Source of the DNA: a virus
Strand: one strand, 5' to 3'
IMG/VR virus record: IMGVR_UViG_3300025646_000403
Span: 1 to 22,961 of that record
DNA length: 22,961 nucleotides
The position numbers and the translations under genes were made by a program. The first letter of the stretch is position 1, and every line of letters begins with the position of its first letter. The notes below the pieces were generated by a model, which did not search any database, had not been told where the DNA came from, and saw only the letters and a program-made list of their open reading frames with translations. Positions 6,863-22,961 of this stretch are shown in pieces.

Positions 6863-9375
6863 TGTCTACAGATTTAAAAACTTCTTTACTTGTTGAAGAT
6901 CAAGTTCCTGAATTTGTTCGGGAAGAACACCCACTCTTTATTTCTTTTCTTGAGGCTTACTATGAATTTCTTGAACAAGAACAAGGTGTTCAGAATAATG
7001 ACTTAACTTCAAAATCTAAACTTCTTCGAAATGTATCAGACGTTGATGCTTCAATTGATGAGTTTGAAGAAAGTTTTATTAATAACTTTGCATCTTTAAT
7101 ACCACAAGATGCAATTTCAGATAAAGCATTTCTCATCAAAAATGTTTTACCACTTTATCTGGCAAGAGGTAATGAAAAATCTTATACTTTTCTTTTTCGA
7201 CTTCTTTATGGTCAAGATGTTGAATTAACACTTCCAAGAAATAATATTCTTCGTGCATCAGCTGGTGATTGGACACAAGAAAATGTGTTGCGTATTGATG
7301 ACAACATTTATTCTTTCTATACTGGTGATGGTTCAACTACAACTTTTCTTTTAGCTCAACAAGTTGGTGAAGGTGATGTTACTGTTTATGTTGATGATGT
7401 AGAAACAACATCTGGATTCTTTATTCGAAAAGAATCAAAGAAAATTATTTTTAACACAGCGCCTGCTGATGGTGCTGACATTGAAGTTCACTATGATAAT
7501 TTCAATGAAAATTTACTGAACAATCGTAGAGTGGTTGGTTCTTCTTCTGGTGCAAGTGCAATTATTGAGAGAGCCATTCCACGATTGATCGGTGTTCAAA
7601 CATCAACAGAATTATACATTACTACAAATACACTTCTTGGTACATTTTTAAATGCTGAAGTGGTTACAATGGATATCATTGCTGATGATGGTGTGACACT
7701 TATTCAGATTGGTTCTGAAACAGTTTCACCACTCAGTCAAATTACAGTCACGGAAGGTGGTTCAGGATATAATGTTGGTGACCCAGTTCTTGTTACTGGT
7801 GGTTTACCACTTACACCTGCTGAAGCAATCGTTGGATCTATCTTTACGGGTGCTGTTGATTCAGCAAATGTAGGGTTAGGTGGTGCAGGATTCCAACTTG
7901 GTGGTATTGTTTCTGCCTCAAATGTTTCTGGTACAATCACACTTGCTGTGACATCCGTTGATGATTCTGGTGCGAATTCAGCAAATTCGTTTACAATTTT
8001 TACAGACGTAATTGATACTTACGCAAATGTCTTAATTTCAGCATCTGATTATGGTTTTCCTGCAAACGTAATACCAACAGGTGAAAATGTTTCGACACGA
8101 TTAATTGACGCATTGTCAAAAGGTACGATTACAGGCATTGGGCCTATGACTGCACTTACTGTTCTTTTTGCAGATGTAAGTGCCAACGGTGCAATCTTTG
8201 ATGCTGATGGTGCTAAGATTGAAACGCTTGCAAATACATTTATTGATATTAAATCGTTTGGTTCTTTAGGTCGTATTCAAATCAATGATGGTGGTGATGG
8301 ATATGAAATTGGTGATGAAATTGTGTTTGGTGCAAATCCATCTGGTGTCTATGGTGTTGGCGCAGCTGCAGCAGTTACAAATGTAAGTTCAATTGGTGCG
8401 ATCACAAAGATTGAGTTTCAACCATCGAGAATTACTGGTACTGCTAATACAGAATCAGGTAACGTCACAATTGTAGGAAATGGAACAGCATTTGATACTG
8501 AATTAGAAGTTGGTTCTCAGATTATGATTAACTCTGAGGCTCGATATGTAAATTCAATTTCTTCTGCAACATCTTTAAATGTGAATGTTGCTTTTGGTCG
8601 AACATCTACAGAAAGACGGGTTGGTCTGTTTGATCAGTATTTAATTGGTGGCCAAGGTTATGTTCAGAATAACTTTCCAGCGATTACAGTATCTTCTGCA
8701 AACACTTCAGCTGCCAATGCGAATGTAGAAATCATTGCTTTGATGGGTGATGGAGAAACGATTACCGCAAGCACATCGACTGTTGCTGGTCAAATTCGAA
8801 CAATACGAATCACCAACCCAGGTAAAGGATACGAGTTTCTGCCTGCGGTTGACCTCACACAATCTGGTGATGGTAATGCAACTGCTGAAGCCGCAATTGA
8901 ACGATCTTACGTTTCTCTTGCTGGTCGTTGGTTAAGTTCTGAAAGTATTCTATCTGCCTTTGAAAGAAAAGTTCAAGGTCTAGATTATTACATTGATTTT
9001 ACCTATGTAACTGAAGTGGCAGTAGAATTTGCAAAATATAAAGAAATTCTCAAAGGATTGTTGCATCCGGCTGGTTTCAAGAACTATGCTGAGTTTCCAA
9101 TCATTAAAACAATCGATGTTCCTCTCACAACAAATACTGCAAAAGACCTATCGGTGTCTGGTCTTGTTGAAATTACAAATGGATCTATCACCGTTACGGG
9201 TACGAACACACGATTCAATGTTGCAAATACACTTGGTATTCTCACAATCGGAACACAGATTGCAGTCAACAATGAAATACGAACAGTCAATAATATCATA
9301 AGTAATACAAGTTTGACGGTTTCAAACGCATTTTCTACTAATGCATCATCACAGACCGTCATTTTAGTCACATAA
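6862..9375 (+). CDS. gp7: Baseplate wedge protein, gp7-like, rebuilt with beta modules
   Basis: This 837-residue protein lies between gp6 and gp8, the position of gp7 in T4. Its first 125 residues (FISFLEAYYEFLEQEQG, later LIKNVLPLYLARGNEKSYTFLFRLLYGQDVEL) resemble the segment of T4 gp7 ending in SYKFLFKVLYNEEVEIEI. Residues 734-739 (LHPAGF) match the later VHPVGF of T4 gp7. Between these anchors lie beta-rich GSGY modules (near residues 293-310, 472-490 and 648-662) and a TGTxTxF-type module (about 531-586), with a second copy as a C-terminal extension (about 767-836). The large N-terminal part of T4 gp7 (1,032 residues in total) appears absent. In T4, gp7 links gp6, gp8 and gp10 in each wedge. 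The assignment is by position and remembered homology, not a computed alignment. Confidence 0.7.
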   Translation: MSTDLKTSLLVEDQVPEFVREEHPLFISFLEAYYEFLEQEQGVQNNDLTSKSKLLRNVSDVDASIDEFEESFINNFASLIPQDAISDKAFLIKNVLPLYLARGNEKSYTFLFRLLYGQDVELTLPRNNILRASAGDWTQENVLRIDDNIYSFYTGDGSTTTFLLAQQVGEGDVTVYVDDVETTSGFFIRKESKKIIFNTAPADGADIEVHYDNFNENLLNNRRVVGSSSGASAIIERAIPRLIGVQTSTELYITTNTLLGTFLNAEVVTMDIIADDGVTLIQIGSETVSPLSQITVTEGGSGYNVGDPVLVTGGLPLTPAEAIVGSIFTGAVDSANVGLGGAGFQLGGIVSASNVSGTITLAVTSVDDSGANSANSFTIFTDVIDTYANVLISASDYGFPANVIPTGENVSTRLIDALSKGTITGIGPMTALTVLFADVSANGAIFDADGAKIETLANTFIDIKSFGSLGRIQINDGGDGYEIGDEIVFGANPSGVYGVGAAAAVTNVSSIGAITKIEFQPSRITGTANTESGNVTIVGNGTAFDTELEVGSQIMINSEARYVNSISSATSLNVNVAFGRTSTERRVGLFDQYLIGGQGYVQNNFPAITVSSANTSAANANVEIIALMGDGETITASTSTVAGQIRTIRITNPGKGYEFLPAVDLTQSGDGNATAEAAIERSYVSLAGRWLSSESILSAFERKVQGLDYYIDFTYVTEVAVEFAKYKEILKGLLHPAGFKNYAEFPIIKTIDVPLTTNTAKDLSVSGLVEITNGSITVTGTNTRFNVANTLGILTIGTQIAVNNEIRTVNNIISNTSLTVSNAFSTNASSQTVILVT

Positions 9376-10954: not shown

Positions 10955-13900
10955 ATGGCAACTAATTACAATGTAAACCCGTATTATGACGATTTCGATG
11001 AAACGAAACAGTTTTATCGCATTCTCTTTAGACCAGGTCGTGCCGTTCAGGCTCGTGAACTTACACAGATTCAAACAAATATTCAAAAACAAATTGAGCG
11101 TTTTGGCCAAAGCATTTTCAAAGAAGGTTCGATTGTAATTCCTGGTGGTTTTTCTCTTGATCGCAAACACCATTATGTAAAACTTACAACTTCTTACGGT
11201 ACCAATGTTTCTGATTCTACAATCAGCACACTTGTAAATCGTGTCATTACTGGTGCTAACTCTAATGTTACTGCTATTGTTGTTGATACTGCAATTTCTA
11301 CAACCGCAGGCGATCCACCAACATTGTATGTTCAATATCTAAGTTCGAATACAACTGCAAACGCAACAAACACTCGATTTCAAAGTAGTGAATTAATTGT
11401 AAATGATGTTGGTAATCTTACACTTCAAGTAGCAAATACAAGTAATGTTGTAGGTTTTGGAACAATTTTCACAATTGGTTCGGGTGCAGTATTTACAAGA
11501 GGTGTTTTTGCCTATCATGACGCACAAAGATATATCGCATCAAAATATACTCAGGCAAATAATGTTGTTTTAGGTTTTCAAGTTACTGAATCTACAACAA
11601 CTGCTACAGATGACACTTCACTTCTTGATCCGGCAGTAGGGGCAAGTAACTACATTGCTCCTGGTGCAGATCGTTATAAGATTGCACTTGATCTTTCTCA
11701 TCGTGATCTTCCATTTACAGCTGACCAAGATCCAGATTTTGTTGAGTTGGTTCGTGTTGAAGACGGTGAAATTATTAAAGACAATTTGGATCCACAGTAT
11801 AGTATTCTCGGTGATACACTTGCACGAAGAACATTTGATGAATCTGGTGACTACACAGTAAGACCTTACAACATTCAAATTAAAAACCATCTCAGATCAT
11901 CAAATACAGATTTTGATGGATATTTTGTAACTTCTGATGGTGGTGATGATGATTTATTTGTTGGTCTTATCTCACCAGGAAAAGCCTACGTTAAAGGTTA
12001 TGAAATTCAAGGTGTCTCGAGCAAATACATCACAGGAAATAAAGCAAGAAATTACGCAAACGTAAACAATGCGGTTGTAAGTACCACAATTGGTAACTAC
12101 ATTTACATTACAAATCTACATTCTGTGCCTGATATTGCTAACTTAGGTACGCTATCACTATACAATGAATACAATACTTCAGGTGGAACTTCAAATGGTA
12201 CTCTTGTTGGTACTGCAAAAGTAAGAGGTATCGAATTTTATTCTGGCACACCAGGCAATTCAGACGCACAGTATCGTCTTTGGCTCTTTGATGTGACCAT
12301 GGAAAGTGGTTATGTCTTTGAACGTGACGTAAAACAAATTTATTCTGATAATACTGGTTATGATGATTTTACTGCTGACATTGTACCAACACTTACTGCA
12401 ATTACTGGTTCTGTTTCTCTTACAAGTGGTGAACCTACAGTTGATGGTACTGCAACTCGTTTTACCACAGAGTTGAAGAATGGTGATTACATTACTGTTA
12501 ATAGTGAAACTTTTCGTGTTGGAAACGTAAACAGTTCAATACAGATAACTGCAAATTCAAGTGCTACTGGTTCTATCAATGGTGTGTTTGCTCTTTTAAA
12601 CACAGTATCTTATAATGACACAGAACATTTACCGCATCTTTTTGAAATGCCAAATCAAGTTATTCGTTCTGTTGATCCAACCAATGTAGAAACTATCTAC
12701 GATGTAAAACGAACATATTCAAGAACACTTTCAGCCAATGCAGTTACAATTACTTCTGGTACAGATGAAATTTTCGCTGGTGTTTCTACAACAAATTACA
12801 CTATCTTCATCACAAGTGGAACTCATGCTGGCAATATTGTTTCACCTACCTCTGTTATTACAAGAGGTGGTTCGCCAACAGGTAAGAATATTACAATCGA
12901 CTTAACAAGCCTTGGTGCTGGTTATGCGACAGAAGATATTATTGTTATTGCTAAATTGGCTAAAACAAATTCAGCTGCTGATAAAAAATCTAAAACACTA
13001 CAAGCAAATACTACAATTGATTATGTTGATGCAAATACGGCTCAGGCAACGACAATCTCTCTCGCTAAAGCTGATGTTTTAAATGTTGTTTCTGTTTACA
13101 TGTCTACTGCATCTTTTGGTAGTGCTTATAGTGCATCTGGCGCAGTCGATATTACAAGTCGTTATACAGTTGATACTGGTCAAAGATTAACATATTATGA
13201 TGTTGGTTCAATTGTTTTAAAACCAAATCAACCAAAACCAACTGGCCCAATTAGAATTACATTTAACTATTTTACTCACGGTGCTGGAGATTATTTCTCT
13301 GTTGATTCATATGACATACCTTATGATGATATACCCTCTTTTAATTCTGGAAGTAAGATTTATCAATTAAGAGATTGTTTAGATTTTAGACCTAGAATTA
13401 ATGATGCTGGTACTGGATTTACTGGAACTGGCGCTACTGTTAATGATTTTATTGATCCTTCATCTGATGTTGTTACAGATTATTCATACTACTTACCAAG
13501 AACAGACATTGTTGTATTGAATCGAGATGGGCAATTTAGAATTGTTCAAGGTGTAGATTCATTAACACCTCAACGACCTACTGTTCCTGATGATTCAATG
13601 CTTCTTTTCGTTCTTGAACAAGATGCATATGTTTTTGATGTTGCGAACAACATTAAAGTAACAAAGATTGACAATCGCCGATATACAATGCGTGATATTG
13701 GTAAGATTGAAACCCGAGTTAAAAATCTTGAATATTATACTTTACTTAATCTTCTTGAAAGAGATACACAAGCTTTACAAGTTCAAGATGCTGATGGGTT
13801 TGATAAATTCAAAAATGGATTTATCGTTGACAATTTCTCTGGTCATGGCATTGGAGATGTTTACAATCGTGACTATGGCGTTGCCATTGATGAAGAACGC

Positions 13901-16900
13901 AGAGAGTTAAGACCAATAACTGAAACACAACCTTTACCATTAATTGAATTTATAGGTGCAAATACTGATCCGGCCAATACGACAACCTTAGCCGCTAGAA
14001 CAGCTAACAACTATGTTTATTGGCCTTCTGGTATTATCTCTTTACCATATACACATACAGAATATATTAAGAGTTCAAAGGCCAGTACCACAGAAAATAT
14101 TAATCCATTTAGTTTAATCACTTGGTCTGGTACGATTACTTTAAGTCCATCAAGTGACAAGTGGTTTGACACACAAAGAAAACCAGATTTATACACAAAT
14201 GAAGAAGGTAACTTTGATCACTTAGCTGCTGAAGCTGCTGCCAAAGGTCTTTTCAATATGAATTGGGGATCATGGAGAAATGTTGGTGGTCTTAATATTG
14301 AAAGAACTGGTACATCATTTGAAGTTGTTGAACAAGTCAACAAAAGAGTAGAAAAAGATGTTATCGTGAGCACTTCTTTTGCACCAAAAATGAGAAGTGT
14401 TTCAATTGGATTTAGAGCCGAAGGTTTAAAACCTGGGACAAGAGTGTATGTCTATTTTGATAACATTAATGTCACACCCTATTGCACGGCCAAAAATAGT
14501 TTAATTTCACTTACAGCATCAAATGCTCTTCTTTCAGTTGGTCCTTCTGTTTTAGGCACAGTAACAAATAATGGATTTAGAACAGTTAATTTGATTACTG
14601 ATCAAACTGGTAAAATTGATGGTGTCTTTAACTATGATGCAGATGTTTTCAATTTGCCTATTGGTGAAAAATCTTTTAGAATTTCAAGTTCTGTTGTTAA
14701 TGACAGTAATTTTGAAACTTTGGCTGAGGCTATCTTTACATCAAGTGGAGAAATTCAGTTTGTTCGTGATGAATACACATCAACACGAAATGGTACTCTT
14801 GTTCTCAAAACAATTATTGAGAAAGATACATTACCTCCACCACCTCCTCCACCAACACCTTTACCGGATACTGAAATTACAGTAAATCCTGGTGTTATTG
14901 AAGATGAAGTCACCTCTGATCCACCTAAGAATAATGATGAGGTACTAACACCAATTTTAGGACCAGATTTTATTGATCTTGTTTACGGATATGGACTTGG
15001 TCGTTTGGCTGATAGAGGAGGAAAAACATATTGGTTTGGTAAGTTGTCAGAGTATGCTGCAGGAACTCCATACTCAACAATTGAAGGAATTGCTGCTGCT
15101 GCGACAGTTTCAAGCACAGGTCCTTTAGATGGTGATTACAATATTGATGCTCTTTCAATCACAGATACCGCTACTGGTGGTGTTGGTGCAAATGATGCTA
15201 CGGCTGCATTATTTCAGATGGCTTACACACTTCTTAATGGTCGAAAAGGCCAAGGAGGTACAGAAGGTGATGGTGATAGTGATATTAGATTAGTATCAGA
15301 TTTCAGAAAAGCTCTGACAAATAAACCTGGTGGTCGATCAAGTTTAGTTGGCGCACAGTTATATAATATTGGTGATGAGTTACCTGGCGATTACATGGGC
15401 CAAGCAAGATTAGCAAACAGTAGAGCCGCAAAACAGATTGCCTATGGTATTGCTGCTGTAAATAGTGGTTATGTTCCTTCTAGTGTTGTATATTATGATG
15501 ATTGTATTTCGGCTACACTAAAACCTGCATCGGCGAGACCTATCGCAATCATTAATCCTGGTGCTCCTCGTTGCGTTGGCACAGGAAAAGATCCATTGGC
15601 TCAGTCATTCTTTGTTGATCGTGGTCTATTCTTAACAAAAGTTGACCTATTTTTCTCAGAAAAAGATAATACAATTCCAATGCGAATTGAATTGAGAAAA
15701 ATGGTCAATGGTTTGCCTGGATCATTTACGATTCCACTTTCAAATAAAGTTGTTTATCCAGAAGACATTACAACAACATCTGATGGATCAACACCAACAA
15801 CAATTTCATGGGATGCGCCAATCTTCTTAGAACCTGGTGAATATGCACTTGTTCTTTTGGCAGAGACAACCAAATATCGAGTTTGGATTTCTCAGATTGG
15901 TCAAAGAGATATAATTACAAATTCTATTATCTCTGAACAACCATATATCGGTGTTCTGTTTAAGTCACAAAATGCATCGACATGGACACCAGATCAATAT
16001 CAAGACCTGAAGTTTACATTATATCGTGCTGCATTTGATGTTACTGTGACTGGTGCCGTTGAATTTACGATACCTACAGGGCTTTATGGTACGAATTTAC
16101 TTGAGGGTGCTTCAATTGAAGTTTCACCAAATAGTAACATTGCAAGAATATATTCGCCACGACACGGTCAAAATTCTGGTTCTTACATCAGTTTAACTGG
16201 ATTACCAACAGAAAATACTTTTGGTGTGAATTCTGAATCTACGATTGTGGGTATTGGTGTTGATCTTCTTGAAGATGTTCCTTTTGTTATTGCAAATACA
16301 ACACTTGATTCATTTACAATCACATTACCAGGTACAGTAAGTGATAACGTAACTTCGACTTCTCGAATCGTTAATGAAGGTGTTACCATTAGTCGAGACA
16401 TTGTTTATGACACTTATGTTCCAATTATTCCTTCGTTGAGACCATCTGGAACATTTATTGTCAATAAAATTAAAACAACAAGAGCCTCTGATTACACTCT
16501 TGGAACAACATTTAGTTCTATTAAAGTTGGTGAAGTTGATTTTAATGAAACAAAACTTCTTGCAAGTGTACCTAATAAACAACAATTAATGTCAAATAGT
16601 GTAAGTTTCTTGCATAAAGTTGAAATGATAACACAAAATGAATTTTTATCACCTATCATCGATACAGAAGCAATCACAGGTTTGTTTGTAAAGAATGTCA
16701 TCAATAATCCAACTTATGATAATTCTAATTTTACGTCTGCAAATGATATTGTGACAATTGCAAGTAATACGACACCAAATATCCTTGTCACACAAGTTTC
16801 GACTGTAAATGCACAAGGTATCATTACATTTACTGATGCTACTGATATTACAAATGCGGCTGGTATTATTCAAGGTACCTATTTAAATATTACTTCAAAT

Positions 16901-17407
16901 ACTGCTGTTGGTACGGGTCAATATCGTGTGATTGAAGTGCGTGATTCTGGTGCAAATGTGGCCGTCTACAATCTAAGTGGTGTCAATGTCTCAACAATGT
17001 CATCTGATACGTCACTTACAATTACAAATGGTCGTAACTTTATTGCAGAAGAAGCGCCATTTGATGGATCCGCATACTCTAAATACATCACAAGACAAGT
17101 TGATTTTGTCAATCCAAGTGATTCATTTAAGTTCTTTGTTGACGTTGTAAGACCATCAGGATCAAACATCAAGTTCTACTATAAGATTAGTGAAGTTGGT
17201 GATACAATTGACCTGAAAGACAAAGAATATACTGAGATTACTGATGTGACATTACCAACAACACTCAATGGGTCGTTTAGTGAAGTGTCTAAACTTGTTG
17301 ACAATTTGCCACAATTTGATGCAATTGTCTTCAAGATTGTCTTCTTGTCTGATGATGGTACTAAAGTTCCTAAGTGTAAAGATTTAAGAATTATTGCATT
17401 GGTCTAA
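10955..17407 (+). CDS. Giant DUF4815-type virion protein with polyproline hinge and DUF4214-like insertion
   Basis: This 2,150-residue protein begins with the DUF4815 signature (NPYYDDFDETKQFYRILFRPG, then RAVQARELTQIQTNIQKQIERFG and IFKEGSIVIPGG, residues 8-65). The family is found in large tail or baseplate proteins of marine T4-like and other myophages. Further conserved-looking blocks are NVVSVYMS to RLTYYDVGSIVLKP, IYQLRDCLDFRPRI, and, late in the protein, DPLAQSFFVDRGLFLTKVDLFFSEKD (from about residue 1545). Residues 1294-1300 are seven consecutive prolines. Just after them comes a DUF4214-like segment (1336-1366) and a Gly/Ala-rich helical stretch to about 1500. A TGTxTxF-type module lies at about 483-550. 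It directly follows gp8, where T4 has gp9 and gp10, so a peripheral baseplate or fibre-attachment role is inferred. A weak ribosome binding site (AAAGG at 10944-10948) precedes the ATG. Confidence 0.8.
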   Translation: MATNYNVNPYYDDFDETKQFYRILFRPGRAVQARELTQIQTNIQKQIERFGQSIFKEGSIVIPGGFSLDRKHHYVKLTTSYGTNVSDSTISTLVNRVITGANSNVTAIVVDTAISTTAGDPPTLYVQYLSSNTTANATNTRFQSSELIVNDVGNLTLQVANTSNVVGFGTIFTIGSGAVFTRGVFAYHDAQRYIASKYTQANNVVLGFQVTESTTTATDDTSLLDPAVGASNYIAPGADRYKIALDLSHRDLPFTADQDPDFVELVRVEDGEIIKDNLDPQYSILGDTLARRTFDESGDYTVRPYNIQIKNHLRSSNTDFDGYFVTSDGGDDDLFVGLISPGKAYVKGYEIQGVSSKYITGNKARNYANVNNAVVSTTIGNYIYITNLHSVPDIANLGTLSLYNEYNTSGGTSNGTLVGTAKVRGIEFYSGTPGNSDAQYRLWLFDVTMESGYVFERDVKQIYSDNTGYDDFTADIVPTLTAITGSVSLTSGEPTVDGTATRFTTELKNGDYITVNSETFRVGNVNSSIQITANSSATGSINGVFALLNTVSYNDTEHLPHLFEMPNQVIRSVDPTNVETIYDVKRTYSRTLSANAVTITSGTDEIFAGVSTTNYTIFITSGTHAGNIVSPTSVITRGGSPTGKNITIDLTSLGAGYATEDIIVIAKLAKTNSAADKKSKTLQANTTIDYVDANTAQATTISLAKADVLNVVSVYMSTASFGSAYSASGAVDITSRYTVDTGQRLTYYDVGSIVLKPNQPKPTGPIRITFNYFTHGAGDYFSVDSYDIPYDDIPSFNSGSKIYQLRDCLDFRPRINDAGTGFTGTGATVNDFIDPSSDVVTDYSYYLPRTDIVVLNRDGQFRIVQGVDSLTPQRPTVPDDSMLLFVLEQDAYVFDVANNIKVTKIDNRRYTMRDIGKIETRVKNLEYYTLLNLLERDTQALQVQDADGFDKFKNGFIVDNFSGHGIGDVYNRDYGVAIDEERRELRPITETQPLPLIEFIGANTDPANTTTLAARTANNYVYWPSGIISLPYTHTEYIKSSKASTTENINPFSLITWSGTITLSPSSDKWFDTQRKPDLYTNEEGNFDHLAAEAAAKGLFNMNWGSWRNVGGLNIERTGTSFEVVEQVNKRVEKDVIVSTSFAPKMRSVSIGFRAEGLKPGTRVYVYFDNINVTPYCTAKNSLISLTASNALLSVGPSVLGTVTNNGFRTVNLITDQTGKIDGVFNYDADVFNLPIGEKSFRISSSVVNDSNFETLAEAIFTSSGEIQFVRDEYTSTRNGTLVLKTIIEKDTLPPPPPPPTPLPDTEITVNPGVIEDEVTSDPPKNNDEVLTPILGPDFIDLVYGYGLGRLADRGGKTYWFGKLSEYAAGTPYSTIEGIAAAATVSSTGPLDGDYNIDALSITDTATGGVGANDATAALFQMAYTLLNGRKGQGGTEGDGDSDIRLVSDFRKALTNKPGGRSSLVGAQLYNIGDELPGDYMGQARLANSRAAKQIAYGIAAVNSGYVPSSVVYYDDCISATLKPASARPIAIINPGAPRCVGTGKDPLAQSFFVDRGLFLTKVDLFFSEKDNTIPMRIELRKMVNGLPGSFTIPLSNKVVYPEDITTTSDGSTPTTISWDAPIFLEPGEYALVLLAETTKYRVWISQIGQRDIITNSIISEQPYIGVLFKSQNASTWTPDQYQDLKFTLYRAAFDVTVTGAVEFTIPTGLYGTNLLEGASIEVSPNSNIARIYSPRHGQNSGSYISLTGLPTENTFGVNSESTIVGIGVDLLEDVPFVIANTTLDSFTITLPGTVSDNVTSTSRIVNEGVTISRDIVYDTYVPIIPSLRPSGTFIVNKIKTTRASDYTLGTTFSSIKVGEVDFNETKLLASVPNKQQLMSNSVSFLHKVEMITQNEFLSPIIDTEAITGLFVKNVINNPTYDNSNFTSANDIVTIASNTTPNILVTQVSTVNAQGIITFTDATDITNAAGIIQGTYLNITSNTAVGTGQYRVIEVRDSGANVAVYNLSGVNVSTMSSDTSLTITNGRNFIAEEAPFDGSAYSKYITRQVDFVNPSDSFKFFVDVVRPSGSNIKFYYKISEVGDTIDLKDKEYTEITDVTLPTTLNGSFSEVSKLVDNLPQFDAIVFKIVFLSDDGTKVPKCKDLRIIALV

Positions 17408-17408
17408 T

Positions 17409-17621
17409 ATGAAACTAAAAGTAAGAGATTATCCTGATCTGGTTCGTGACTCGCAGTCAAAAGCGATTATAAACACGAACCGATCAGCAATGATACAACA
17501 CATAGAAAAAAGAGAAACAAAAGTTTCAATTCAGAGTTTACAAGAAGAAATAAATGTTATTAAAGACGAATTTCAAGAGATAAAAGAATTGTTGCGTCAG
17601 ATTGCATCTAGGAATCACTAA
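17409..17621 (+). CDS. Small coiled-coil virion-associated protein
   Basis: This gene encodes 70 residues from the ATG at 17409. A longer reading from the TTG at 17394 would overlap the preceding gene and is less likely. The N-terminus MKLKVRDYPDLVRDSQSKAIINTN resembles small proteins I recall from marine and enterobacterial T4-like phages, where the pattern VRD...L.RD..S.AI.NT is common beside structural genes. Residues about 28-66 are charged with hydrophobic heptad spacing (SIQSLQEEINVIKDEF, EIKELLRQI), which predicts a coiled coil. Function is unknown; a small structural or assembly factor is plausible. It follows the giant protein's stop by one base and overlaps the next gene by one base (TAATG at 17619-17623). 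Confidence 0.78.
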   Translation: MKLKVRDYPDLVRDSQSKAIINTNRSAMIQHIEKRETKVSIQSLQEEINVIKDEFQEIKELLRQIASRNH

Positions 17622-18298
17622 TGGCTATTAATCAGATTTCAACCGCTAATACCTTCCAGCAATGGTTGGTGGCCACACAATCACTTATCGGTGTTGCAAA
17701 TAATCTTACTGATGGAACAGGCGGCACATTCTACGCCAACACCGATATGGTTGTTGACGGTGATCTTACTGTTACAGGAAACATTACACTTGACGAAATT
17801 GGTTTTAATGATGTAAATGTTGCTGGTAATATTTACGCAAGTGGATTTTCTTTCTCTGCAAATGCTAATACAAAAACTGGAGTTACGACACTTGCGGTAA
17901 CAAATAGTGGTACTTCAGCTTATCTGTTTGATCAATACACAGGAGATAATCCAGATTTATATTTACATCCTGGTCAAACAATTGCTTTTAATATCAACGC
18001 ATCTGGTCATCCATTTTTGGTTCGTGAGTCGGATGGTGGAACTCTTTATAATGTTGGACTTACACACGTTTCAACGACTGGTGTGGTCACGACAGGATCA
18101 GATGCCCAAGCAAAAGAAAGTGGAACACTCATTTGGAAAGTTCCGTTTGAATTAATTGGGAATACATATGTTTATCAATGTCAAAATCACGCTGGCATGG
18201 TTGGTAATTTAATCATTCAAAATACGGTTACCGCAGCTTTTGCTGCAGCTAACGCTGCAACGGCAGATTCACTTGCGTTTGCAATTGCTTTAGGATAG
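17621..18298 (+). CDS. Fibre-like virion protein with cupredoxin-like domain
   Basis: This 225-residue protein has two recognisable parts. Residues 1-75 (NTFQQWLVATQSLIGVANNLTDG, then DGDLTVTGNITLDEIGFNDVNVAGNI) are a module often at the N-terminus of marine myophage fibre-like proteins, probably a virion attachment segment. Residues about 88-200 look like a cupredoxin beta-sandwich: YLHPGQTIAFNINASGHPFLV, then GTLIWKVPFEL, then YVYQCQNHAGMVGNLIIQ. The candidate metal ligands H130, C187, H190 and M193 are placed as in blue-copper proteins (one early His, then Cys-x2-His-x2-Met). The last 25 residues are Ala-rich and probably helical. Whether copper is bound cannot be told from sequence. The gene starts with a one-base overlap with the previous stop. 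Confidence 0.77.
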   Translation: MAINQISTANTFQQWLVATQSLIGVANNLTDGTGGTFYANTDMVVDGDLTVTGNITLDEIGFNDVNVAGNIYASGFSFSANANTKTGVTTLAVTNSGTSAYLFDQYTGDNPDLYLHPGQTIAFNINASGHPFLVRESDGGTLYNVGLTHVSTTGVVTTGSDAQAKESGTLIWKVPFELIGNTYVYQCQNHAGMVGNLIIQNTVTAAFAAANAATADSLAFAIALG

Positions 18299-18325: not shown

Positions 18326-18643
18326 ATGGCGAATACCTTCAAAAATTATCCACAGGCGAATGTATCATCAAACACAGTAGTATTTACTGCTGGTACTGGT
18401 GTTCAGGCTACGGTGATTGGTATGACAGTTGCAAATCGTGTCACAGCACCAATTACTGCAAATGTCATTCTGCACTCTGGTGGAACAGATTATTATTTGG
18501 TCAGAGAAGCTGTCATTGCAGTTGGCGGTGCTCTTGTACCAGTCGGTGGAGATCAAAAATTGGTTCTTGAAGCTGCTGACTCACTTGCAGTTTCAACATC
18601 AGCAAACTCTGATGTAATTGTATCGGTTCTGGAGATCACCTAA
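18326..18643 (+). CDS. Small beta-sandwich virion protein (paralogue 1)
   Basis: This 105-residue, all-beta-looking protein has no charged catalytic pattern. Its pattern (VVFTAGTGVQATVIGMTVAN, then DYYLVREAVIAVGGALVP and KLVLEAADSLAV) matches a small phage protein type common beside tail-fibre genes: a beta strand, NTVTVxN-like strand, then a LVLEAGD-like strand. It resembles the product at 19150-19479, especially in the ITVxN and L-x-A-A-D regions, and I read the two as distant paralogues. Role unknown; a virion surface or fibre-associated protein is likely. It has its own putative late promoter and a good ribosome binding site, which suggests independent, possibly strong, expression. The stop overlaps the next start (TAATG). 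Confidence 0.75.
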   Translation: MANTFKNYPQANVSSNTVVFTAGTGVQATVIGMTVANRVTAPITANVILHSGGTDYYLVREAVIAVGGALVPVGGDQKLVLEAADSLAVSTSANSDVIVSVLEIT

Positions 18644-19146
18644 TGTCATATATTGGCTCAACGCCTACTACGCAAGTTTTTGTTTCAAGCGCACAATCAT
18701 TTAATGGTGATGATGTTACCGTTAATTTTACGCTTGATCGAGAGATTGCGACAACAAGAGATTTAGAAGTTCTTGTTGAAAATGTTCAGCAAGATCCATT
18801 TACTGCATATACTGTCTCGGGAAATACACTTACATTTACTGAGGCACCACCAACTGGTACTGGTAACATTATTGTTACTTATCGTAATTATACAATTTCT
18901 AAGTTCGTACCTGAAGAAGATTCAATTCAAGATTACATGCTTCAGGCCAATTCAGTCACAACGGCTGCAATTGCTGGTGGTGCAGTTCAAGCAAACAACC
19001 TTGCAGATACCACAGTTTCTTTGGGCAATTATGGTGGTGCAGATCAAGTACCATCATTTACGGTAGACGCACAAGGCAGATTGACATACGCTGCCAATGT
19101 ATCAATTGAAACAGGATTTAACCCATTTCTACTGGCAGGACTCTAA
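18643..19146 (+). CDS. Tail fibre-like protein with VDAQGRL motif
   Basis: This 167-residue protein has two parts. Residues 1-85 (QSFNGDDVTVNFTLDREIATTRDLEVLVENVQQDPFTAYTVSGNTLTFTEAPPTGTGNIIVTYR) are the beta domain found near the N-terminus of many marine phage fibre-like proteins. Residues about 105-167 contain VPSFTVDAQGRLTYAANV, a motif repeated in tail fibres and fibre-derived proteins of many phages. It is shorter than a full fibre, so it may be an adaptor or one subunit of a multi-protein fibre. Its C-terminal 60 residues are paralogous to the 63-residue product at 22571. It overlaps the upstream gene by one base, and three bases separate it from the next ATG. Confidence 0.76.
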   Translation: MSYIGSTPTTQVFVSSAQSFNGDDVTVNFTLDREIATTRDLEVLVENVQQDPFTAYTVSGNTLTFTEAPPTGTGNIIVTYRNYTISKFVPEEDSIQDYMLQANSVTTAAIAGGAVQANNLADTTVSLGNYGGADQVPSFTVDAQGRLTYAANVSIETGFNPFLLAGL

Positions 19147-19149
19147 CAC

Positions 19150-19479
19150 ATGGCAACCACATATAAAATTCTAGGACAATCTGCACCAACACCAAACACG
19201 CTGACAGATGTTTATACTGTCCCAGGTGCAACACAAGCAGTTATTTCAACTATCACCGTTTGTAATCAGACCGCAGAGAACGCATCGTATTCAATCGCTG
19301 TGGCTGCTGACGGTGCTGCTGATTCAAACTCTCAATACATCATTCGTGGTGGTGTTGTACCGGCTGCCGATTCAATTGGTATCACACTTGGTATTACACT
19401 TGATGCCGCAGATGTTGTTCGAGCAAATACAAACAAAGCAAATGTCGCATTTAATATCTTTGGATCTGAAGTAGCTTAA
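19150..19479 (+). CDS. Small beta-sandwich virion protein (paralogue 2, 'KILGQ' type)
   Basis: This 109-residue protein starts YKILGQSAPTPNTLTDVYTVP and continues with AVISTITVCNQTAENASYSIAV and YIIRGGVVPAADSIGITLGITLDAADVV. It is clearly paralogous to the partial gene at 22763 (KILGQ, P-x-x-NTLT-x-V, AVISTITxCNQ) and more distantly to the product at 18326. It carries a single Cys at the conserved CNQ position. No enzyme motif is visible. Its place between a fibre-motif protein and a glycine-rich adhesin suggests a virion surface or adhesin-assembly role. There is no Shine-Dalgarno in the three-base gap before its ATG, so coupling is likely. Confidence 0.75.
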   Translation: MATTYKILGQSAPTPNTLTDVYTVPGATQAVISTITVCNQTAENASYSIAVAADGAADSNSQYIIRGGVVPAADSIGITLGITLDAADVVRANTNKANVAFNIFGSEVA

Positions 19480-19482
19480 ACT

Positions 19483-21162
19483 ATGTCAATAAAAACAATT
19501 GGTCGGCCGAAGGGGTATCAGTATCCGGTAGGATTATCTACAGGCACATTACCAATAGGTAACTCTACTGTAATCCAAGAATATACCACATCAAATACAT
19601 GGGTTGCACCAATAAGTGTAACCGAAGTTGAATATTTGATCGTTGGAGGTGGCGGTGGCGGTGGCGGATCTTCGCCTGGTTCATCAGGCGGCGGCGGTGG
19701 TGGCGCTGGTGGTTTTAGAATAGCTTCTGGTTTTCCAATTGTAGCTGGAAACACATATACAGTTACGGTTGGATCTGGTGGAGGCGCAGGTGGTGGTGGT
19801 AGTAGAGGCGGTAACGGTTCAAGTTCGATATTTTCTTCTGTAACTTCTGCTGGCGGTGGTGGTGGAGGTGGTTCAAGTGGAAATGGACCTGGTAATCCTG
19901 GCGGTTCTGGCGGAGGTGCAGCAGGTCTTAACACAGCAACAAATCCAGGAGGTACTGGTAATGACCCTGTTGTCAGTCCTTCTCAAGGAAATCCTGGAGG
20001 AACAACAGGGCCAGCTCCAGCAGGAGGTGGTGGTGCAGTAGGAGCTCCAAATTACGCTTCAGCTGGAGGTGGAGGTGCTAATACAGCAGGTGGTACCGGA
20101 AATGGAACGACCACAGGAGGTCCTGGTGGCGATGGTGCAAACTCATCAATTTCAGGATCATCCATAGCATATGCTGGCGGTGGAGGAGGTGCAACATATG
20201 CCGGAGGCACACCCGGAACAGGTGGACTTGGTGGTGGAGGTTCTGCACCTGGCACTTCTGGTATTGCAAATCGAGGCGGTGGTGGTGGCGGCACTTCTCA
20301 AGGAACAGGAGGTGCAGGTGGCTCTGGTATCGTCATTCTTAAATACACTCAAACAAAAGATAATACAGTTCATACCTTTACCACATCAGGTAATCTGACT
20401 ATTGCCACAGGTATAACTGAAGTCGAATATCTAGTCGTTGCTGGAGGTGGTGGAGGCGGCAGAGGTCAAACTGGAGGATATGCCTACGGTGGAGGCGGCG
20501 GTGGCGCTGGTGGATTTAGAGTTGCATCTGGATATCCTGTTACACCAGGATCAACATATCAAATTACAGTAGGCGCTGGTGGCGCTGCTGCACCAGGACC
20601 TGGCTCAAAAGGCGCTAATGGTGTTAATTCAACATTTGATTCAATCACCTCTTTAGGTGGCGGTGGAGGTGCTGGGGCAGCAGCGCCAGCAATTCCTGGA
20701 AATTCTGGTGGTTCTGGTGGTGGAGGTTTTCAAGGTGGATCTGGTGGGCCAGGAACTCCAGGTCAAGGAAATGCTGGTGGAGGTAGTGGTGCTTCAACAC
20801 CTGCTTATGGTGGAGGTGGTGGTGGCGGTGCAAACACCGCTGGAACAAATGGTACTCCTACATTAGGTGGACCAGGCGGAGCTGGTGCAAACTCATCAAT
20901 TTCAGGATCATCCATAGCATATGCTGGCGGTGGCGGAGGCGGTACTTATTCAGGAGCAACTGTTGGTACTGGAGGACTAGGTGGAGGTGGAGATGGATCT
21001 AGTTCAGCTCCTGTTGCGGCTGGTTCTGGTGTTGCAAATCGAGGTGGTGGTGGAGGTGGTTCTGGTACAACAGCACCAAATACAACTGGCTCAGCTGGTT
21101 CTGGTGGATCAGGTATTGTCATCGTAAAATGGGACATCGGACTTAGTTATTTCATCAACTAA
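19483..21162 (+). CDS. Glycine-rich adhesin-like tail protein with two tandem units
   Basis: This 559-residue protein has a 45-residue N-terminal part with the motif RPKGYQYPVGL (residues 8-18), then two tandem glycine-rich units, residues about 48-288 and 313-550. Each unit opens with EVEYL(I/V)V followed by glycines, and ends in GGSGIVI(L/V)K. Inside are many runs of five to eight glycines and the shared motifs SISGSSIAYAGGGG and ANRGGGGGG. Such domains can pack as polyglycine-II helices, as known for the gp38 adhesin of Salmonella phage S16 and the glycine-rich domain of ALK receptors. A host-binding tip is therefore inferred. The coding DNA is visibly richer in G than its neighbours because of GGN codons. 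The neighbouring motif-sharing protein at 21631 supports an adhesin family. Confidence 0.8.
   Translation: MSIKTIGRPKGYQYPVGLSTGTLPIGNSTVIQEYTTSNTWVAPISVTEVEYLIVGGGGGGGGSSPGSSGGGGGGAGGFRIASGFPIVAGNTYTVTVGSGGGAGGGGSRGGNGSSSIFSSVTSAGGGGGGGSSGNGPGNPGGSGGGAAGLNTATNPGGTGNDPVVSPSQGNPGGTTGPAPAGGGGAVGAPNYASAGGGGANTAGGTGNGTTTGGPGGDGANSSISGSSIAYAGGGGGATYAGGTPGTGGLGGGGSAPGTSGIANRGGGGGGTSQGTGGAGGSGIVILKYTQTKDNTVHTFTTSGNLTIATGITEVEYLVVAGGGGGGRGQTGGYAYGGGGGGAGGFRVASGYPVTPGSTYQITVGAGGAAAPGPGSKGANGVNSTFDSITSLGGGGGAGAAAPAIPGNSGGSGGGGFQGGSGGPGTPGQGNAGGGSGASTPAYGGGGGGGANTAGTNGTPTLGGPGGAGANSSISGSSIAYAGGGGGGTYSGATVGTGGLGGGGDGSSSAPVAAGSGVANRGGGGGGSGTTAPNTTGSAGSGGSGIVIVKWDIGLSYFIN
20133..20183. repeat. 51-base perfect direct repeat, copy 1
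   Basis: The stretch starts TGGTGCAAACTCATCAATTT and is identical to 20883-20933, exactly 750 bases (250 codons) downstream. It encodes the same motif in the two glycine-rich units and could serve as homology for recombination between them. Confidence 0.9.
20883..20933. repeat. 51-base perfect direct repeat, copy 2
   Basis: This is identical to 20133-20183. The match breaks on both sides at single-base differences (C for A upstream, C for A downstream), while the protein sequence around it remains closely similar. Confidence 0.9.
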
Positions 21163-21168
21163 CATACA

Positions 21169-21176
21169 TATAAGTA
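21169..21176 (+). promoter_or_regulatory. Putative late promoter octamer variant (TATAAGTA)
   Basis: This one-base variant of the T4 late consensus TATAAATA lies in the longest intergenic gap of the window (60 bases), six bases after the upstream stop and 46 bases before the ATG at 21223. A T-rich stretch and a strong Shine-Dalgarno follow. Position in a real gap makes it credible despite the mismatch. Confidence 0.5.
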
Positions 21177-21205
21177 GTAAAACGTAGTATATTTCATTTT
21201 TAAAC

Positions 21206-21211
21206 AAGGAG
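21206..21211 (+). promoter_or_regulatory. Strong ribosome binding site (AAGGAG)
   Basis: AAGGAG ends 11 bases before the ATG at 21223 and is the best Shine-Dalgarno match seen in the window. It implies that the small protein downstream is made in quantity. Confidence 0.72.
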
Positions 21212-21222
21212 AAATTTTAACA

Positions 21223-21618
21223 ATGGCACACTTTGCTAAAGTAGAAAATGGAATTGTAACTCAAGTCATTGTCGCAGAACAAAGTTTTATTAATACTGGT
21301 GCAGTCGGCGATCCTTCTTCTTGGGTTCAAACTTCCTATAATACCCGTGGCGGGGTTCATTACGGCCAAGACGGACAACCAGATGGTGGTGTAGCTCTGC
21401 GTAAAAATTATGCAGGTATCGGTTACACATACGATGCAGAGAGAGATGCTTTCTATGCACCAAAACCATACAACTCATGGGTTCTGGATGCAGACACTTG
21501 CTACTGGGAAGCACCAGTTGCAATGCCTGATGATGCTGGTACTGGTGATCCACCTAAGATGTATACCTGGGACGAAGATACGACCAATTGGGTTGTTGTA
21601 GAAAACGAACCTGCATAA
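21223..21618 (+). CDS. Conserved small marine-phage protein of unknown function
   Basis: This 131-residue protein starts MAHFAKVENGIVTQVIVAEQ and contains TSYNTRGGVHYG, GYTYDAERDAFY and VAMPDDAGTGDPPKMYTWDE. I recall very similar proteins from many marine cyanophage and metagenomic contigs, annotated only as hypothetical. No signal peptide, membrane segment or enzyme motif is visible. It is rich in Trp and Tyr, acidic, and ends in a Trp-containing strand (TWDEDTTNWVVVE) loosely like the end of tail-fibre assembly proteins, so a fibre chaperone or decorating protein is possible. It lies between two glycine-rich adhesin genes with its own likely promoter and the strongest ribosome binding site here. 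Confidence 0.82.
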   Translation: MAHFAKVENGIVTQVIVAEQSFINTGAVGDPSSWVQTSYNTRGGVHYGQDGQPDGGVALRKNYAGIGYTYDAERDAFYAPKPYNSWVLDADTCYWEAPVAMPDDAGTGDPPKMYTWDEDTTNWVVVENEPA

Positions 21619-21620
21619 TT

Positions 21621-21624
21621 GGAG
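21621..21624 (+). promoter_or_regulatory. Ribosome binding site (GGAG)
   Basis: GGAG lies six bases before the ATG at 21631, just after the preceding TAA at 21616-21618. It fixes the start of the single-unit glycine-rich protein at 21631. Confidence 0.6.
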
Positions 21625-21630
21625 TATTGA

Positions 21631-22539
21631 ATGGGTGACACCGCCAAGCAGTTCTCGCTGCAAAACTTTCGGCCTGAAGGATTTGCGTATCCGATAGGAT
21701 TGAATACAACTATTACTGGTAATCTTGCTACCAACATCACAGGTGGTGACCAAACCATAGATGGCACTAATGCAGTTCACACTTTTACATCATCTGGTTT
21801 TTTTGAAAATCAAACAGGTTTTGATGTTTCAGTAGAATATTTGGTTGTTGCTGGAGGTGGTGGTAGTGCTCCTTATGGTGGCGGTGGTGCTGGTGGTTAT
21901 CTTTATGGATCTGGCTATCCTGTTGTTGATTCGGCTAATGTAACTGTCACAATAGGTGGAGGTGGAACAACAGGCCCTTCAGTAGGAGCCAATGGTACTA
22001 ATTCAGTATTTGATACAATTACTTCTAATGGTGGTGGAGGAGGATCAGTTCTTACTGTAGCTGGGTCAGGTGGATCTGGCGGTGGAACAACTGATGCTGC
22101 AAGAGGCGGTATTATTGGATTAGGTATACCAGGTCAAGGTAATCCTGGTGGAATAGGAGCTTCAGATTTATCTTCATGGACATATGCTGGCGGCGGTGGT
22201 GGTGCTGGTGAAGCTGGTGCTAATGCTTCAACCTCACCAGCACCAGCTGGTGGTGGAGGTGGTCCTGGAGGTGATGGTTTAGCTTCTTCTATATCTGGAG
22301 TATCAACGTATTATGCTGGTGGTGGCGGAGGTACAAATCAAGGAGCTGGTCCAGCTCCTGGTGTTCAAGGAACTGGTGGTCTTGGTGGAGGTGGTGCTGC
22401 GAGTGGTGCACCTGGAGGTGGAGTTTCTGGTACAGCAAATCGTGGTGGAGGCGGCGGCGGTTATGGTGGTGCAGGTGGTTCAGGTATTGTGATTGTTCGT
22501 TATGAATTAGAAAAAATTGCTTCAATATCTATCAACTAA
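21631..22539 (+). CDS. Glycine-rich adhesin-like tail protein with one unit
   Basis: This 302-residue protein is paralogous to the product at 19483. Residues 14-24 (RPEGFAYPIGL) match that protein's RPKGYQYPVGL, and residues about 67-291 form one glycine-rich unit that opens VEYLVVAGGGG and ends GGSGIVIVRY. Inside are SSISGVSTYYAGGGGG, GTGGLGGGG and ANRGGGGGG in the same order as in the two-unit protein. The last residues (SISIN) recall the SYFIN end of the paralogue. The inferred role is a receptor-binding tip built from polyglycine-type helices; direct evidence is lacking. A good ribosome binding site precedes the ATG. Confidence 0.8.
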   Translation: MGDTAKQFSLQNFRPEGFAYPIGLNTTITGNLATNITGGDQTIDGTNAVHTFTSSGFFENQTGFDVSVEYLVVAGGGGSAPYGGGGAGGYLYGSGYPVVDSANVTVTIGGGGTTGPSVGANGTNSVFDTITSNGGGGGSVLTVAGSGGSGGGTTDAARGGIIGLGIPGQGNPGGIGASDLSSWTYAGGGGGAGEAGANASTSPAPAGGGGGPGGDGLASSISGVSTYYAGGGGGTNQGAGPAPGVQGTGGLGGGGAASGAPGGGVSGTANRGGGGGGYGGAGGSGIVIVRYELEKIASISIN

Positions 22540-22545
22540 TAAATA
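22538..22545 (+). promoter_or_regulatory. Putative late promoter octamer (AATAAATA)
   Basis: This NATAAATA octamer overlaps the TAA stop of the glycine-rich gene and is 25 bases before the ATG at 22571. The A-rich leader contains a weak AGAAGAA purine stretch that could act as a ribosome binding site. The A-rich surroundings lower confidence. Confidence 0.42.
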
Positions 22546-22570
22546 AACAAAAAACAAAGAAGAAAAACAA

Positions 22571-22762
22571 ATGGCACTTACAAAGGTAGAAGCAGGATTA
22601 CTTGCAAACACTTCAGTCACCGCAGCAACATATGGTGGTTCAACTGCGATTCCTGTGATTACTGTTGATGCACAAGGTCGCCTCTCAAATGTTGTCAATA
22701 CATCCATTGTTGTTGGTGATGCATACCCACATCCATTTGTCTTTACAAGTATAGGTACATAA
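22571..22762 (+). CDS. Short fibre-motif protein (VDAQGRL), paralogue of the 18643 product's C-terminus
   Basis: This 63-residue protein aligns with the C-terminal 60 residues of the protein at 18643: LANTSVTAATYGG to LADTTVSLGNYGG, PVITVDAQGRL to PSFTVDAQGRL, and a similar short tail. It lacks that protein's N-terminal beta domain. It is either a minimal version of the fibre-motif protein or a remnant of a duplication. An ATG, an upstream octamer and an intact frame argue that it is expressed. The next gene begins at the very next base after its TAA (22760-22762). Confidence 0.68.
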   Translation: MALTKVEAGLLANTSVTAATYGGSTAIPVITVDAQGRLSNVVNTSIVVGDAYPHPFVFTSIGT

Positions 22763-22961
22763 GTGGCATTTACAAATAAAATTCTCGGTCAAGTTTTACC
22801 AAATGCAAATACGCTGACGAATGTATTTGTTACTGATTCGTCTAATTCTGCTGTCATTAGCACAATCACTATTTGCAATCAATCAAGTGACAATGTAACC
22901 GTTGATCTTATCATGCGGCCAATCAACGAAGCACTTGACAACAAACATTACCTATTAAAGA
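22763..22961 (+). CDS. Small beta-sandwich virion protein (paralogue 3, 'KILGQ' type), 3' partial
   Basis: Starting at GTG 22763, immediately after the upstream TAA, an open frame of 66 codons runs off the window edge. The product (AFTNKILGQVLPNANTLTNV, then AVISTITICNQSSDNVTVDL) matches the product at 19150 at KILGQ, NTLT-x-V, AVISTIT-x-CNQ and the following positions. A GTG start fits the position-by-position match with the ATG of the paralogue (VAFTNKILGQ against MATTYKILGQ). Only about 60 percent of the expected 109 residues is visible. The role is unknown, presumably virion-associated as for the paralogue. Confidence 0.75.
   Translation, partial: MAFTNKILGQVLPNANTLTNVFVTDSSNSAVISTITICNQSSDNVTVDLIMRPINEALDNKHYLLK

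Follow-up and report, generated by a model that had tools for sequence, protein, structure and literature searches.

Candidate array of exchangeable adhesin cassettes downstream of a VrlC-like gene in a T4-like marine phage

Introduction

In phages of abundant marine bacteria, the fibre genes vary extremely and for the most part lack annotation, which leaves open how such phages shift their host range. Both glycine-rich adhesins at fibre tips and fibre loci of hypervariable content are already known, and the available part of a study of pelagimyophages places their hypervariable host-recognition cluster directly after VrlC (PMC7029224). The locus analysed here lies near the right end of a 22,961-base IMG/VR fragment (the window), whose record ends at position 22961. 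The original prediction read its genes as a duplicated adhesin cassette, to be followed by a further glycine-rich gene just beyond the edge. We asked whether these genes form a repeating unit, how their products might fit together, and which parts are exchanged between phages.

Gene content of the locus

Homologues of gp5, gp25, gp6 and gp8 are encoded upstream of the array, which places it in a T4-like baseplate context. The left border of the host-recognition cluster is marked by a VrlC-like baseplate gene (10955..17407; 2150 aa; DUF4815, PF16075), whose product matched a stretch of P-SSM7 annotated as VrlC; this gene and all those described below are on the plus strand. The connector/fibre protein C (17621..18298; phrog_677, baseplate wedge tail fibre connector, E 2e-24) ends in DSLAFAIALG, and this tag (IALG, the K0 kind) precedes K0 also in relatives and cultured phages. 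The domain HPFLVRESDGG..YVYQCQNHAGMVGNLII of C, which may be cupredoxin-like, recurs C-terminally in the K fusion proteins of L051, L052 and L076 (L numbers denote related loci).

All five open reading frames named in the original prediction were present at the coordinates given there, and its pairing of the two VDAQGRL proteins and of the two KILGQ proteins was borne out. V1 (18643..19146), assigned as a short fibre stalk from its match to phrog_18673 (tail fibre N-terminal part) and from the tag-K covariation described below, carries VDAQGRL and ends in the tag FNPFLLAGL, while V2 (22571..22762) is a minimal stalk of 63 aa with VDAQGRL and the tag HPFVFTSIGT. The two are 50% identical over 44 aa (pairwise BLASTP, E 2.4e-12); V2 lacks the MSYIG-type N-terminal domain of V1, so the repeat covers the C-terminal part only. 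K1 (19150..19479; K family HMM, E 2e-46) and K2 (22763..22961, cut by the contig end; E 9e-21) are 41% identical over 66 aa (pairwise BLASTP, E 1.1e-17). Since the same HMM also recovered the ORF at 18326, the window has three K genes, the additional one encoding a divergent family member of 105 aa, K0 (18326..18643; E 6e-21), which groups with the K0 proteins of relatives and cultured phages (support 100/99).

The structure model of K is an all-beta domain (pLDDT >90), a beta sandwich in K1, with folds like that of 4dmi, a pentameric protein from metagenomic phage sequence, and those of nucleoplasmin-like domains and other beta sandwiches. In BFVD, K matches numerous small phage proteins that are uncharacterised, as well as a K-like domain inside a tail fibre-like protein of S-CAM1; by sequence, K had no match in the PDB up to E 1.

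Two glycine-rich genes follow K1, and both contain the predicted RPxGxxYPxGL motif. G1 (19483..21162), with RPKGYQYPVGL and the C-terminus SYFIN, has two Gly_rich_2 domains (PF21722, E 2e-43, 149 bits), and G2 (21631..22539), with RPEGFAYPIGL, scores 52.7 bits (E 7.5e-14), both above the curated cut-off of 24.3. The best PDB match of the G2 model (pLDDT 79.5, pTM 0.78) was the Pam3 fibre 7ypx_A (E 3.9e-4, probability 1.0) at a TM score of only 0.33-0.40, so the folds are alike in part. G1, and G1 only, matches phrog_863 (gp38) weakly (E 8e-12), possibly driven by glycine runs; by sequence, no gp38 in the PDB was matched. The profile and model matches thus support the proposal of a glycine-rich adhesin as the predicted tip. 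Most glycine-rich proteins of the T4-like contigs have a conserved [YF]x[IVL]N C-terminus, seen in G1 and G2 of the window and in L005, L006, L089, L090, L094 and L100-L104.

Between G1 and G2 lies P (21223..21618), a phrog_7759 protein. A glycine-rich ORF stands directly before P in 37 of 40 distinct cases, and from this position P is possibly an adhesin chaperone or accessory protein. Comparison of P with solved chaperones gave no detectable relation. Another small gene, T (phrog_9114/1787-like, RPGAxW; e.g. L005:17245-17649), often lies between P and the next V in relatives and is not found in the window; profiles of P and T gave nothing convincing against the PDB.

Recurrence of the cassette in relatives

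A scan of IMG/VR with K1 gave 130 relatives, from which 80 loci were kept; the search with the cut K2 gave one relative. As a rule, a fibre-like ORF whose C-terminus is hydrophobic comes first and is followed by K and then by a glycine-rich ORF. The unit is a V stalk with a hydrophobic tag, a beta-sandwich K and at least one G, often with P. The tag varies before K (FLLMGA, FLLSGM, LMLSGM, LFFTGS, FVFTAIGT) and is IALG before K0. After distinct K genes other than K0 (n=110), the next ORF is glycine-rich in 66 cases, another K in 9 and something else in 35. In 75 loci, with redundant, near-duplicate contigs counted in, K is directly followed by G 98 times, compared with a mean of 18.9 and a maximum of 30 in 1000 shuffles of gene order. 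The repeating adhesin cassette of the original prediction is supported.

The two further expectations, that related phages would differ in cassette number at this locus and that the genes would be linked rather than scattered, also held. Where a T4-like contig has the locus after VrlC, the number of cassettes ranges from one to several, and V, K and G stand together in many contigs. The order in L005 is v K v K G G (HNH) v K K G v K G P T v K K G, and that in L104 is v K v K K G G G P T o K G K+ K G G G. In the latter, three consecutive glycine-rich genes stand behind one K (L104:5992-8770 and 12624-15482), so one K can go with differing numbers of adhesins. Among cultured phages, the OM43 phage Melnitz has two V-K-G-type sets and Roseobacter phage CRP-143 has fibre-K-G-P-G-G, while the K0 arrangement occurs in Melnitz, CRP-9, CRP-143 and HTVC203P. 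Additionally, a single-K search found three bacterial MAG contigs, phage-like in look, with V-K-G, V-K-G-P or K-G-P.

The genes of the unit are also found fused. V and K are naturally joined in L104, and K is fused at the N-terminus of an RCC1 adhesin in L082 and of collagen-like adhesins in L076 and L052, which supports a physical neighbourhood of V, K and adhesin.

A family of HNH-like ORFs is found at the borders of cassettes or directly behind fibres with an IALG end (L005:12220-12912; L006:9123-9824 and 19668-20324; L092:6121-6819 and 7768-8295). Pfam identifies NUMOD3/HNH in L005; the ORF at L006:9123 has no Pfam match yet belongs to the same HMM family. Homing endonucleases at such borders could help cassettes to move.

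Covariation at the junctions and the proposed architecture

Both neighbours of K covary with it, and they do so at short junctions. The last nine residues of V covary with K over 105 V-K pairs (Mantel r 0.64, uncorrected for phylogeny) and still do among K pairs more than 50% different (r 0.46, with shared ancestry and tight linkage not removed). Among these divergent pairs, the preceding nine-residue blocks of V show no such relation (r -0.11, -0.03 and -0.03). On the other side, in 24 K-G pairs that have the RP motif, covariation with K is seen for the eight residues of G ahead of this motif (r 0.53, p 0.001, uncorrected for phylogeny), is weaker for the motif itself (r 0.29) and is absent from the glycine-rich body (r 0.015, p 0.41). 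Homologous V bodies (YGxxxxIPxIxVxxxGR[IL]) bear three tags that track three K types: FNPFLLAGL stands before type A, PNILMLSGM before type B (5/5) and HPF[VF]FT[AS][IM]G[TS] before type E (5/5, with the window counted in).

Taking these results together, we read the region as the start of a host-recognition cluster in a T4-like marine phage, made of an array of exchangeable adhesin cassettes in which K links stalk to adhesin; we give this explanation as a whole a probability of about 0.6. Each cassette would build one short fibre with V as the stalk, K as the connector and G as the tip. The hydrophobic C-terminal tag of V would dock into the small beta-sandwich protein K that is its partner, and K, sometimes two in a row, would carry a G adhesin of the Pam3 gp24 or T2 gp38 kind, whose loops would touch the host; P possibly helps G to fold. 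If contacts are limited to the short matched junctions, i.e., V tag with K and K with the G N-terminus, bodies or whole cassettes could be swapped with assembly intact. Against this reading stand the monomer AlphaFold model of a V1-K1 read-through, which gave a well-folded K with the tag unplaced on K and a tag pLDDT of about 58-67, and the 35 of 110 K genes that are followed by neither G nor K.

A different role for K and P has to be weighed, in which both, in the manner of T4 gp38 or Pam3 gp25, would act as chaperones during assembly and then depart from the virion; V and G would join directly or form separate fibres, and the tag would be a chaperone landing site. Chaperones are frequent among the small proteins encoded beside fibre genes, Pam3 gp24 depends on gp25, and a K0 protein stands ahead of a larger fibre or glycine-rich protein in both Melnitz and CRP-143. 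Nevertheless, the natural fusions join K to V and to adhesin N-termini, K homologues in phiPsal1 and pelagiphages are annotated as virion structural (by annotation alone), and K is flanked on either side by neighbours that covary with its type; we consider the chaperone role unlikely, and K is more probably part of the virion.

Somewhat less likely still, tag, K and G N-terminus might covary simply through linkage and common descent of an inherited block, with the tag serving mostly as the ribosome-binding site of K. The tag does overlap the region upstream of the K start, and its glycine codon is GGA in 66/111 cases, against a background of about 25%; this enrichment fits a ribosome-binding site for K, so part of the tag may be translational. 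Such a site leaves the conserved hydrophobic residues unexplained, however, and tags are kept where the gap between V and K exceeds 20 nt (24-35 nt), which together point to a role at the protein level too. Linkage and descent, for their part, fit poorly with the adjacent nine residues, which lie only 27 nt away and do not covary with K among divergent pairs, and with the different tags on homologous V bodies.

The cassette reading can be carried further, to a plug-and-socket code across several aquatic phage groups, in which the nine-residue tag picks K and K picks the N-terminal motif of G; we hold this extension tentatively, at somewhat under even odds. If it is true, several different, independently exchangeable adhesins could be displayed on one virion. 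A second kind of tag, perhaps, is the GG[STRAG]F C-terminus of ORFs downstream of arrays (L090:4835-7812, L094:12709-12960 and L097:13632-13865).

Origin and exchange of cassettes

In a tree of 65 K proteins, types K0, A, B, C, D and F are supported clades that span contigs. K1 belongs to type A, and the nearest rows to K2 are the type E proteins of L104, L090, L005 and L089, the K2 fragment having no starred placement support; V2 has the tag class of V in the type E cassettes of the same four contigs. The K types are ancient, and since K1 and K2 are of different old types with their closest kin on other contigs, the cassettes of the window do not stem from a recent duplication, which corrects the reading as a duplicated cassette. 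A simple recent tandem duplication within the window phage, to which the same gene order and the 74% nucleotide identity of the K1 and K2 starts over 61 nt might point, is thus very improbable, as the tree contradicts it and K1 is 89% identical to its homologue in L005 and only 41% to K2. Moreover, the same K type occupies differing ordinal positions across contigs, which implies that cassettes were gained, lost or moved.

Comparison with the nearest relative (L004/L085) locates one break within a cassette. The amino-acid identities are 84% for VrlC, 99.6% for C, 100% for K0, 98.2% for V1 and 100% for K1, and G1 is 62% identical with many indels. Based on a gapped comparison, nucleotide identity is about 99% from about 17.56 kb to 19,485 and breaks at 19486, the second codon of G1. 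Past the break, the RPKGYQYPVGL stretch is nearly identical to that of the relative, and the body of G1 is divergent. This mosaic is the pattern expected if an adhesin was replaced, or diverged fast, on a conserved connector.

No reverse-transcriptase ORF was found in the window, itself a fragment, where YxDD strings occur in two structural proteins only. The literature on tentaclins and DGRs was compared and set aside as different from V-K-G cassettes.

Comparison with known systems

The T2-type gp37-gp38 tip (T2, PP01, S16) resembles the cassette in that a glycine-rich tip adhesin is held on the fibre by its N-terminal part and has hypervariable loops in a glycine-rich scaffold; a T2/PP01 chimera places partner specificity at the gp37-gp38 junction (PMC12892980). 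These phages have one adhesin each and no K, and gp38 directly follows and caps gp37, whereas here a K gene stands between stalk and G, and there are several cassettes, an intermediate beta-sandwich K and tag types. Cyanophage Pam3 gp24/gp25 (PDB 7YPX, 7YFW) shares a glycine-rich body with a beta domain and a small linked downstream gene. Pam3 gp24 combines a TNF-like and a glycine-rich domain with hypervariable distal loops (PMC9608196); it has its own helical docking domain, whereas G starts with RPxGYxYPxGL and sits behind the V and K genes. The pelagimyophage/cyanomyophage host-recognition cluster shares the position after VrlC and the hypervariable content, and the available part of that source describes a variable island with tail fibres but not the repeating V-K-G-P unit, the tag or the K family (PMC7029224).

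A search of the open-licence literature brought up no account of a V-K-G-P unit, of the tag types or of the K family. The new element is that the V tag and the N-terminal residues of G covary with K type. A defined cassette with recognisable junctions lets adhesins be annotated in uncultured phages and predicts which parts undergo exchange, and the cassette reading would account for many small fibre-linked genes of unknown function in marine phages.

Genes expected beyond the window

The original prediction placed a glycine-rich gene next after K2. In three of the four contigs with a type E K (L005, L089 and L104), this gene is followed by a second K and then by a glycine-rich gene, an order that suggests the prediction probably named the right kind of gene and placed it one gene too soon. 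By our own estimate, the rest of K2, about 50 residues, is likely to be followed by a second K of about 113 aa, and a glycine-rich gene that bears the motif, in the form RPxG[YF]x[FY]PxG[IL], very likely lies within three genes of K2. In the fourth contig, L090, a partly glycine-rich ORF comes first after the type E K, then a K and then G.
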